Shown here piece after piece: positions 1,100 to 5,436 of a DNA stretch of 36,779 nt. Made by a program: the position numbers and the translations under genes. Below the pieces are notes generated by a model. It searched no databases. It had not been told where the DNA came from and saw only the letters and a program-made list of their open reading frames with translations. Position 1 is the stretch's first letter. Every line of letters begins with the position of its first letter. Location: the NCBI GenBank assembly GCA_020722315.1, contig DYLD01000011.1, forward strand, positions 1 through 36,779, given 5' to 3'. The DNA is from Syntrophus aciditrophicus (lineage in GTDB: Bacteria; Desulfobacterota; Syntrophia; Syntrophales; UBA5619).

Positions 1100-1232
1100 G
1101 AAAGCACGCAGGTTTCCGAAAAAATGGGGGCAACAAAAAATCCTTGCAAGGCGATAAAATCTTCTTGCCGCGGTGTGACTGCGATGGTATGAATTTAGCC
1201 TCTTGAATCCAATTCTCAGGAAGGAAACAAAA

Positions 1233-2729
1233 ATGAAAGTCATCCTTGCCGGCCACAACATCGATCGAGATATCATCAATGAATTTCACGCTCTGTACCC
1301 GAACCGCAACGACCTCACGCCGGAGACCATTGCCGCCGCGTATGCCCGGATAAGCCGTAATCCCGCCCCGATCAACGAACTCCGCGTGATCGCGAGGGAC
1401 GACATTGAAAAGGCCCGCCTCTCGAACAAAAACATCGTCTTCGAGATGGGACACAGCTCGATTGCCGAGCATGCCGTCTTCAACATAGACATCATCGGCG
1501 TCTCGCGGCTTGTGGCAGAGGAAATCGAACACTCCCGCCTTGCCTCCTATACCGAGAAATCACAGCGCTATGTCCTTCTCTCCGATGACTTTGTCGTCCC
1601 ACAGGAGATCCGGGGGACCGATCTCGAAGAGCTCTTCATTCGTACCGTCCGCCGGCAAAACGCGTTTTACCACGAGCTTTACGAGAAGCTCCGACCGTAC
1701 GTTTTTGACAAAAACACCGAGCTGGCCTCTAAGCGCGCAAACAAATCGATGCTGGAAGGTTGGGCAAAGGAGGATGCCCGCTACTGCCTTCCGCTGGCGA
1801 CGGAGACCCAGATCGGCATGACGATCAACGCCCGCAACATCGAGACAATGATCCGCCGTCTTGCCTCGTCCGCGTCGGCCGAGGCGGTTGAAGCCGGCAG
1901 GATGCTCTACGACGCCGTTTACGATATAGCCCCTTCGCTTGTTCGTTACACCGAGCCGACTCCGTATGACCGCCAGAGGCCGGAGGTCCTATTTGAGGAT
2001 GTTTTGGCTCAGTATTCACTCAAACCTTCCCGCTTGCGCACAACAAGGACCGGCCGCGGAAAGGCGCCCAACGGGAACGCCGGTTTGATACGTCTTCTCT
2101 CTGTTGCGCCCGACGCCGATGACGTCATCGCGGCGGTGATGATCGCGAGGGCCATAAGTATCCCGTTTGCCGAATGTTTTGCGATCGTCCAGCGGATGAA
2201 GCAGAGCGAAAAGAAGAATCTGTTCAAAAAGGTCTTCAAAGAAATGAAGCCCCATGACTCCGCGCCGCGGGAATTCGAACATGTCTGGCTGACGTTTGAG
2301 CTTGTCGTCAGCGCGACATGTTTTGCCCAGCTCAAACGACACCGGATCGCGACGATAACGGCGCAGCCGTACGACCCGGCGCTGGGGATAACAGTTCCGG
2401 AATCCGTCACCGCGGTCGGAATGGAACCCGCGCTGAGAGATCTGTGCGCCGAGGCGGCTGAGACTGCGGAAAAAATCGCAAAGCACGCACCGGCGGCTGC
2501 CCCGTATATCCTGACAAACGCGCACCGCCGGAGGGTTATCATGAGCCTCAATGCGCGGGAAATATACCATATGGCCCGCGTCCGCGCCGATCAGAGCGCC
2601 CAGTGGGATATACGTCAGACCACGGTAAGGATGACCGAGCTTGCGACAAAGGCCATGCCGCTGAGTATGATGCTGGCAGCCGGAAAGGATGAGTTCAACG
2701 CCCGCTACGGCAGGGTGTTCGGCAAATAG
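1233..2729 (+). CDS. Tandem-domain FAD-dependent thymidylate synthase (ThyX)-like protein
   Basis: N half: GHSSIAEHAVFNIDIIGVSRL...HSRLASYTEKSQRYV; C half: CFAQLKRHRIATITAQP...SLNAREIYHMARVRADQSAQWDIR. ATG at 1233 has an AGGAAGGA RBS. Confidence 0.85.
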   Translation: MKVILAGHNIDRDIINEFHALYPNRNDLTPETIAAAYARISRNPAPINELRVIARDDIEKARLSNKNIVFEMGHSSIAEHAVFNIDIIGVSRLVAEEIEHSRLASYTEKSQRYVLLSDDFVVPQEIRGTDLEELFIRTVRRQNAFYHELYEKLRPYVFDKNTELASKRANKSMLEGWAKEDARYCLPLATETQIGMTINARNIETMIRRLASSASAEAVEAGRMLYDAVYDIAPSLVRYTEPTPYDRQRPEVLFEDVLAQYSLKPSRLRTTRTGRGKAPNGNAGLIRLLSVAPDADDVIAAVMIARAISIPFAECFAIVQRMKQSEKKNLFKKVFKEMKPHDSAPREFEHVWLTFELVVSATCFAQLKRHRIATITAQPYDPALGITVPESVTAVGMEPALRDLCAEAAETAEKIAKHAPAAAPYILTNAHRRRVIMSLNAREIYHMARVRADQSAQWDIRQTTVRMTELATKAMPLSMMLAAGKDEFNARYGRVFGK

Positions 2730-2796: not shown

Positions 2797-3570
2797 GTGG
2801 TGGGCCGGTTTATGGGGACGAAAAAAAGGGGTCAGCCTGACGGATATCCGACTGTAGCAGGAATGAGCCGGGATCAGCATATCGGCATCGTCAAAGAGAT
2901 GTTTGCGACGATCCCGGGACGATACGATTTCCTGAATCATCTGCTCAGCCTCCGCAGGGATGTCGCCTGGCGCCGTTTCACTGTCAGGAAGATGCGTTTT
3001 TTCGATACATTCCGTCTTCTTGATGTTGCAACCGGCACGGCGGATATCGCGATTGAAGCGGCCCTGATGCACCCAAAAATCTCTGTTATCGGGATTGATT
3101 TCGTCTCGGAGATGCTTGTCCCGGGGAAAAGAAAGATCGCCGGGAAGAATCTTTCCGGGCGGATCGATTTGCTTCAGGCCGATGCGACAAGGCTTCCGTT
3201 TCCCGATGCGCGTTTCGACGCGGCTGTCATCGCGTTCGGCATCCGGAACATCCCCGAAAAGCCCAGAGCCCTCGGCGAGATGAGACGCGTCCTCGTCCCG
3301 AACGGAAGAGTTTATGTTCTGGAACTCAATGCCCCTCAAAACCGTCTCTGGCGCAAGATCTTCGCCCCGTATCTGATGCGTGTGCTGCCCGGTGTCGCAA
3401 AACTTTTTTCACGCAATCCGGCTGCCTATCTCTATCTTGTCGATTCGATCGTCCATTTTCCGAGTCCTGCCACCTTTCTCGGCCTGATGGAAGAGGCAGG
3501 CTTTTCCGAACTTAAACATTATTCGCTTACATTAGGCATTACCTCTTTGTACGTAGGCAGCAAGAGATGA
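2797..3570 (+). CDS. ubiE: Demethylmenaquinone/ubiquinone methyltransferase, UbiE/MenG family (start could be 2812 or 2863)
   Basis: MFATIPGRYDFLNHLLSLRRDVAWRR, DVATGTADIAIE SAM motif, AFGIRNIPEKPRALGEMRRVL. Confidence 0.92.
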   Translation: MVGRFMGTKKRGQPDGYPTVAGMSRDQHIGIVKEMFATIPGRYDFLNHLLSLRRDVAWRRFTVRKMRFFDTFRLLDVATGTADIAIEAALMHPKISVIGIDFVSEMLVPGKRKIAGKNLSGRIDLLQADATRLPFPDARFDAAVIAFGIRNIPEKPRALGEMRRVLVPNGRVYVLELNAPQNRLWRKIFAPYLMRVLPGVAKLFSRNPAAYLYLVDSIVHFPSPATFLGLMEEAGFSELKHYSLTLGITSLYVGSKR

Positions 3571-3862: not shown

Positions 3863-5152
3863 TCAGCTCTGAGCCTTTTCTACCGGAAAGGTCGTGACGC
3901 TCCTGTAGTCGAAATAGCCGTTTTGTAATCCCGAGACAATCACGCGAACGACGGGAATCTGGAGGTCGGGGTGTGTTAAATCAAAGGCCAGGATGCGGTG
4001 GGCGGGTGTGAGGGCATTCACGAGATTCTCGAGACCGGGGGGTGAAGGCGGTATTTCGGCCAGCGGGACAGGATCGCCCCCCTGTCGTGTCCAGTGGCCG
4101 GACGGCACCTCATCGGCCAGTGAGGCGGGATGGATCTTTTCGCGGATGTATCGAATAATCGGAACATAACGACAATGGGTTCTATAATGATAGAAGAACA
4201 CCCAGGCCCGCTGCTGTGCAAGCTCGAGAATGGCCCGATGCAGCGCGATGCGAATGTCCGTCGAAGCGGCGGATCCCTGAAAAAGCATCCGGCAGTAAGG
4301 ATCGAAACTCGTCGCAAAGGCGGTATATATTCCGGGGACGTCCGCGCAATAAAAGCTCTTGAGGCCTAGACCGTTTTCCTCGAACAGCCGTTGAAGGGCC
4401 TCGAAGTGCGTATCCCCACGAATATCGATGGCGCGCGGCCCCGGTTGCATTTGGTGGGCCAGCCTGTATTGCGCATCGCGCTCAACGACCTCGCAGATGC
4501 CCGCAGATATCGCATCATCGAGGCTCCGACCAGCCGAAAGGCCGTTGGATACGAAGAATCCCATCCGGGTGCTGTTAAATCCGTCAAACGGATAAGCGGA
4601 ATCCGGAAAATCAATCAGCACGAATTCGAGCGGAACGAGCACCTCCGCCCGGCTGATCAGATCGCGTCCGCGAAACCAGATCAGACGTTTGTCCGGTGCG
4701 AAACTTACGCCGTCGGGTATAAAGAATTCCCGGGGATCAACGGCCTGATCACCGAGCTCTGCAAACGAGGCCTCCACAGTCCTCCCGTCCAGGGGGTAGT
4801 AGGCGCCGCTGTAGCGTTCCACGGCCTCCATGATGCAGGAGAGGCGCGACTGTTCCGGCGTGGCGCCCTTGCCCTTTTCGATCGAGAAGAACTCCATCTC
4901 GCCCCACTCTTTAAGAGGCGCAAACCGCGCCGGCTGCATCTCTGGCAACCGCAAAATCAGATGCACCGGAATACCGAGCGTATCGGTGAAGCTGATGTCG
5001 AACGGCAAAGACGCGTGGATACGCGGCAATAGAGGCTCCACGCGGGAAAGCATCTCTTCTGTCAGACTCCGGGATGATTCAAGATCGCGCTTCATAAAAC
5101 CAGTTTCTGAAAAAATCCGCCACGCCGGCCGCGTTACGGTGGGAATCGTCAC
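3863..5152 (-). CDS. YcaO-domain protein (stand-alone)
   Basis: YcaO ATP-binding-like motifs SCIMEAVERYSG, GICEVVERDA and AILELAQQRA; GTG start overlaps upstream stop (GTGA). Confidence 0.88.
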   Translation of the reverse strand: MTIPTVTRPAWRIFSETGFMKRDLESSRSLTEEMLSRVEPLLPRIHASLPFDISFTDTLGIPVHLILRLPEMQPARFAPLKEWGEMEFFSIEKGKGATPEQSRLSCIMEAVERYSGAYYPLDGRTVEASFAELGDQAVDPREFFIPDGVSFAPDKRLIWFRGRDLISRAEVLVPLEFVLIDFPDSAYPFDGFNSTRMGFFVSNGLSAGRSLDDAISAGICEVVERDAQYRLAHQMQPGPRAIDIRGDTHFEALQRLFEENGLGLKSFYCADVPGIYTAFATSFDPYCRMLFQGSAASTDIRIALHRAILELAQQRAWVFFYHYRTHCRYVPIIRYIREKIHPASLADEVPSGHWTRQGGDPVPLAEIPPSPPGLENLVNALTPAHRILAFDLTHPDLQIPVVRVIVSGLQNGYFDYRSVTTFPVEKAQS

Positions 5153-5436
5153 GCTTTAAACAGAGATTCTATTTTCGCCTTTGCCGCCTTTGCAGGATCC
5201 TTTCCGTTTTCAGTCATTGGGCTATCTTTAAAAACGAAAAATTCGCAGAAATTGCTTCGATCCTTCTCAATGACCCGCTCCGCCTGCGGTTCCCTGCAAT
5301 CATTGTAAGAACCGACATGATAATGGGCACAGTTCAGGCAGCAGTGCAAATCGGCTCCGCAAAACGGACAGGTCTCCGTCCTGCCGGCAGGGGTTTTGAT
5401 TTCCAAAACGTTCAAGCACGCATGACAGCGCTTCAT
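5149..5436 (-). CDS. Small Cys-rich zinc-ribbon protein
   Basis: CHAC...CPFCGADLHCCLNCAHYHVGSYNDC...C; located between thiE and ycaO, 4-nt overlap with ycaO. Confidence 0.75.
   Translation of the reverse strand: MKRCHACLNVLEIKTPAGRTETCPFCGADLHCCLNCAHYHVGSYNDCREPQAERVIEKDRSNFCEFFVFKDSPMTENGKDPAKAAKAKIESLFKA

Follow-up and report, generated by a model that had tools for sequence, protein, structure and literature searches.

The tandem ThyX gene and its two halves

The window, the whole 36,779-nucleotide stretch analysed here (contig DYLD01000011.1 of Syntrophus aciditrophicus), carries on its plus strand an open reading frame (ORF) at 1233-2729 that encodes a 498-amino acid protein, P0001. This ORF is a real gene: the start codon (ATG at 1233) is preceded by AGGAAGG, a Shine-Dalgarno-like ribosome-binding site at 1218-1224 (+). 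A pseudogene or assembly artefact was ruled out, as the gene is intact in dozens of genomes. Its same-strand neighbours encode a CorA Mg2+ transporter (2-1099) and a UbiE/COQ5 methyltransferase (2797-3570), with no evident link to thymidylate. On the minus strand, a YcaO protein adjoins a small cysteine-rich protein with two CxxC pairs (3863-5436).

The first-pass annotation of this DNA had described the ORF as ThyX in tandem, and profile matches bear this out, since the Thy1 family (PF02511) matched twice within the single frame, at 1317-1937 (+, 127.9 bits) and at 2094-2660 (+, 87.6 bits). Between the two domains lies a linker (1980-2081, +) that is variable in the alignment. The protein as a whole scored well above the curated cut-off of PF02511 (210.7 against 24.8 bits) and above that of the NCBIfam thyX equivalog TIGR02170 (129.9 against 87.9), and P0001 gave no Pfam match to the ThyA domain PF00303.

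The annotation had also proposed that the ThyX signature RHRX7S has decayed in complementary fashion, and this was confirmed in the sequence. The N half (HSR-LASYTEK-S) reads HSR at residues 100-102 (1530-1538, +) and keeps the serine, and the C half (RHR-IATITAQ-P) has an intact RHR at residues 369-371 (2337-2345, +) and ends the motif in proline. A complete RHRX7S is absent from any single domain and is obtained only by combining both halves. The N-half triplet is indeed degraded, but only in part, as the third arginine of RHR is still there.

Further motifs divide in the same manner (all on the plus strand; T. maritima numbering unless stated). The N half contains the GHSSIAEH and ARYCLP segments that had been reported for it; GHSSIAEH (residues 73-80, 1449-1472) holds the equivalents of H53 and S/T55, found in this half only. 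Its S-x-R-Y motif, SQRY at residues 110-113 (1560-1571), provides S110, R112 and Y113 as equivalents of S88, R90 and Y91 and is invariant in all tandem proteins. R183 (1779-1781), also confined to the N half, corresponds to R147, whose role we take to be the one annotated in UniProt. R92 (1506-1508) corresponds to M. tuberculosis (Mtb) Arg87, a dUMP ligand in the subunit C role (PMC6514825), and is again found in the N half only. The C half lacks the serine, both dUMP arginines and GHxS: REFE (residues 346-349, 2268-2279) replaces GHxSxxEH and places an arginine at the Ser/Thr55 position, and P424 (2502-2504) occupies the position of the lost R147. What the C half does have is RHR, R451 (2583-2585; R174 in T. 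maritima, R199 in Mtb) and AQWDIR (residues 456-461, 2598-2615), the last in this half only. Both NARE and RVRADQSAQWDIR, earlier assigned to the C half, are present there, but NAR also occurs in the N half (INARN). An arginine near the R174 position is present in the N half too, if a one-residue gap is allowed.

Distribution, conservation and origin of the split

A scan of genome contigs recovered relatives at 37 loci, mostly full-length and 44-57% identical, chiefly from Syntrophales and Smithella but also from Aminicenantes, Omnitrophota and one Cloacimonadota genome. Further relatives came from a search of 297 genomes belonging to the host's phylum, in which tandem proteins also occurred in a second family (f18); the other matching families mostly had single-domain ThyX. 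In the Aminicenantes phylum (that of locus L028), 57 of 99 genomes gave matches, many of them in open frames of tandem length. Three MAG contigs (L036, L038 and L039) have the tandem ORF in two or three open frames, reflecting either assembly frameshifts or true split genes. An apparent fusion to the upstream gene at L033 and L043 (ORFs of 1165 and 988 amino acids) was rejected, since in this GC-rich DNA the frame simply stays open over a long stretch, antisense to another ORF.

Tandem ThyX was also found on plasmids of Bacillus, Paenibacillus, Miltoncostaea, Euzebya and Parabacteroides, annotated merely as FAD-dependent thymidylate synthase. These proteins, of about 520-565 amino acids, show the same tandem Thy1 architecture and N/C split, although their identity to P0001 is only about 24-29%. 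The Bacillus/Paenibacillus group has RHNR in the C half where the window protein has RHR, and the actinobacterial/Bacteroidota plasmid group has GDDS in place of GHSS. Three of the Bacillus/Paenibacillus plasmids (L070, L071 and L074, about 205-229 kb), on which a helicase gene lies downstream of the RHNR-type gene, look like phage-plasmids. Viral contigs of jumbo-phage size and phages carry tandem ThyX as well (L076-L081 and L092-L094, the larger ones about 289-470 kb), among them Tunturi_5 and the Vibrio phages Yong XC31 and BONAISHI. In Tunturi_5 the gene adjoins one for dCMP deaminase.

To describe how the two halves are conserved, 46 close homologues were aligned. In their N halves, H53, S/T55, S88, R90, R147 and Mtb R87 were each present in 46/46, and in their C halves H53, S/T55, R87, R90 and R147 were found in none (0/46). 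The reverse held for the other wall of the site: Q75, R78, H79, R80 and R174 were present in every C half, and Q75 and H79 were missing from all N halves, where the R78 position is occupied by Lys (39), Arg (6) or His (1) and the RHR position usually reads K-F-R. Both halves retain R80, N163, R165 and Y91, with R174 in the N half as an addition if the one-residue gap is accepted, so that on these common positions the degeneration of the halves is not total. The same partition was evident at positions invariant in 15 single-domain ThyX proteins of the same phylum, of which 13 were kept in the N half only (including H53, S55, Mtb R87, R90 and R147), 8 in the C half only (including Q75, H79, Q180 and W181) and 11 in both; S88 and R78 split in the same direction.

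Among 55 tandem proteins sampled more widely, every N half had S88, R90, Y91 and R147, and every C half had R174 together with either RHR or RHNR (55/55 each). H53, R87 and R165 were not universal in the N halves of this set, so N-half chemistry may vary in the distant subfamilies. The arginine of the C-half REFE motif was present in all 46 close relatives and in 48 of the 55, a level of conservation that suggests a new role in the vacated pocket. Around the S88 position, alignment of the C half requires a two-residue gap and is ambiguous; the C half of one protein (L099) contains an STRY string, but outside the conserved position.

Taken over 92 distinct tandem proteins, i.e., the 46 close homologues and 46 further, much more distant ones, the core of this pattern had no exception: the N half has SxRY and R147 and lacks RHR, and the C half has RH(N)R and R174 and lacks SxRY and R147. 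As judged from these alignments, the complementary split is far beyond chance.

Phylogenetic analysis of the separated halves of the close set placed all N halves in one clade and all C halves in another, each with 100/100 support. In a wider quick tree, a supported branch kept the C halves together and the N halves required two changes, with subfamilies recurring in matching order in the N and C clades. Separate clades with matching topology indicate that the specialisation is ancient. The trees fit one old duplication followed by specialisation; the deep branches are long, and a few such events are possible.

Subunit roles and predicted composite sites

Published structures assign the residues of the ThyX active site to different subunits. 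In Mtb ThyX, FAD is held by RHR 95-97 of subunit A, and subunit B contributes Ser71 and Arg190; the dUMP ligands are Arg95 and Arg199 from A together with Arg87, Ser105 and Arg107 from C, and Tyr108 of subunit C serves as a lid (PMC6514825). The PBCV-1 ThyX structure shows Gln75 and Arg182 contributed by one monomer and Ser88 and Gln89 by the other (PMC3498832). With the C half of the tandem protein in role A and the N half in both B and C, every residue with an assigned role was present where needed, and across the window protein the set of site residues was complete, each residue lying in the half expected to contribute it. Wherever a residue was missing from one half only (Q75, R78 and H79; S71, R87, S105 and R107), that half was the one with no need of it.

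Canonical ThyX assembles as a homotetramer of 222 symmetry. Its members (PF02511, TIGR02170; e.g., T. maritima TM0449 and M. tuberculosis ThyX) share with the window protein the common fold, the FAD and dUMP residues and the sites shared between subunits. However, canonical chains have 216-270 amino acids, each with a full RHRX7S, and form four equal sites, whereas here each chain has two specialised halves; a single-domain homotetramer is impossible for the fused chain and a pseudo-tetramer is predicted instead.

We therefore favor, at a probability of roughly 0.86, a fused protein that is a flavin-dependent thymidylate synthase built of two specialised ThyX domains, in which a dimer of the fusion mimics the tetramer and forms two complete composite and two vestigial sites. 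It would convert dUMP to dTMP using methylene-tetrahydrofolate, FAD and a reductant. The C-terminal domain would act in role A, as the RHR wall that holds FAD, and the N-terminal domain in roles B and C, as the dUMP wall. Under the presumed 222 symmetry, two complete and two dead sites would result if the C halves took positions A and D and the N halves B and C; with the halves placed in any other way, no site would have all its residues. A complete site would need one C half and two N halves, which means that the chain would have to dimerise, with one active site per chain and two sites per four domains. We infer the dimer, the domain arrangement, the number of sites and catalysis from the residues and the published subunit roles. 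The earlier suggestion that a fused protein could assemble composite sites from two specialised halves is strongly supported, because the residues kept in each half fit those roles (PMC6514825, PMC3498832) without exception and the rule applies throughout the tandem class.

An AlphaFold2 model built with 42 family members had a mean pLDDT of 85.4 and a pTM of 0.83. Confidence was low at residues 65-74 and 104-109, which by analogy with ThyX would be active-site loops contacting other subunits, and at 268-281, which is the linker. The best PDB matches of the model in Foldseek were all T. maritima ThyX chains (TM 0.63-0.69, normalised to target). A solved structure of a tandem ThyX was not found in the PDB, where all matched chains had 270 residues or fewer.

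It could be argued that one half alone is the enzyme, through contacts with its own kind, leaving the other as an inactive domain with a structural or regulatory part to play. The N half has the fuller ThyX signature and the higher Thy1 score (127.9 vs 87.6 bits), but neither half is complete: across the 46 close relatives, the N half is without H79 and Q75 and the C half without R90, R147, H53 and S55. Moreover, a C half carried as dead weight would not have kept RHR, R174 and AQWDIR invariant over those relatives. We consider this arrangement very improbable.

Thymidylate synthesis genes and the standing of the tandem class

The first-pass annotation had left room for a non-thymidylate function, and the presence of thyA or another thyX in the genome bears on that possibility. 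In the host genome, which is 98% complete, we found no match to ThyA (PF00303), no Thy1 match outside the ORF at 1233-2729, no thymidine kinase and no dihydrofolate reductase (DHFR). Among 24 genomes bearing tandem ThyX, none had ThyA or a second Thy1 gene, with one tandem gene cut by a contig end; in 29 further ones, Thy1 matches were confined to the tandem ORF and one genome had a partial ThyA match. Overall, ThyA was absent from 52 of 53 tandem-bearing genomes and a second Thy1 gene from all. The lone ThyA-family match (genome G377, contig C15, 128691-129131, minus strand) is partial, scores 36 bits within a 501-amino acid open frame and may be another ThyA-like protein. A search for thymidine kinase in 14 genomes gave none that was convincing and two weak matches. 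Given these absences, the enzyme that makes thymidylate de novo is very probably the tandem protein, barring an unknown enzyme in that role or a gene missed in the unassembled 2%. Neither of the outcomes that the first-pass annotation had named as refuting its proposal was seen: the protein has more than one ThyX domain, and there was no lack of pocket residues alongside a separate thyA or thyX.

The same gene content disfavors a protein that methylates a different pyrimidine, such as UMP or a modified nucleotide, and is no thymidylate synthase. Such altered use has a precedent in PolB, a ThyX homolog that acts as a UMP C5 methylase (PMC5003785) and belongs to polyoxin biosynthesis, and the sites of the tandem protein are indeed rearranged. 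However, the dUMP-binding set of Ser, Arg and Arg is invariant, and with the tandem gene as the sole Thy1 gene we hold this alternative to have little chance of being correct. Independent random decay of the two copies, pseudogene-like or neutral and complementary by coincidence, would draw on the commonness of decay among duplicates, but it is in practice refuted by 92 proteins from several phyla with the same split and by seven residues with published roles whose one-sided losses all lie in the predicted direction (sign test about 0.016 with either labelling, sites treated as independent).

Tandem ThyX is thus best read as a synthase with composite sites, and it is a real, widespread and uncharacterised ThyX variant. 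The architecture itself was already known: a "domain duplication" in Chloroflexi ThyX was remarked on, uncharacterised, by Valas and Bourne (2009; PMC3224940). The window protein shares with those proteins two ThyX domains per chain and, going by the paper's description, likely belongs to the same group; neither residues nor a mechanism are analysed in that paper. Our literature search, with preprints and most subscription papers outside its reach, returned this 2009 remark and no account of the split site. What the present analysis adds is the universal complementary split together with the sole-synthase context.

Cells normally cannot do without thymidylate synthesis, and the ThyX enzyme, with its sites placed between identical subunits, is a drug target. 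A naturally fused form with one half-set of residues per domain is a ready-made dissection of the ThyX site, showing which residues must be supplied by which subunit, and it permits one composite site to be mutated with the other face of the same domain untouched, which is impossible in a homotetramer. It is also a clear example from nature of how the copies of a duplicated, self-associating enzyme can undergo complementary loss, here kept in 92/92 aligned proteins.

More speculatively, tandem ThyX may be a separate, ancient class of synthase with obligatorily split sites, spread across phyla, plasmids and jumbo phages, whose vacated pockets have acquired a new purpose, e.g., allosteric nucleotide sensing or a tuned response to oxygen or NADPH; we regard this extension as unlikely. 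In the vacated pockets of the close relatives, an invariant Arg replaces the FAD-contacting Ser, and R80, N163, R165 and the Arg near R174 persist.
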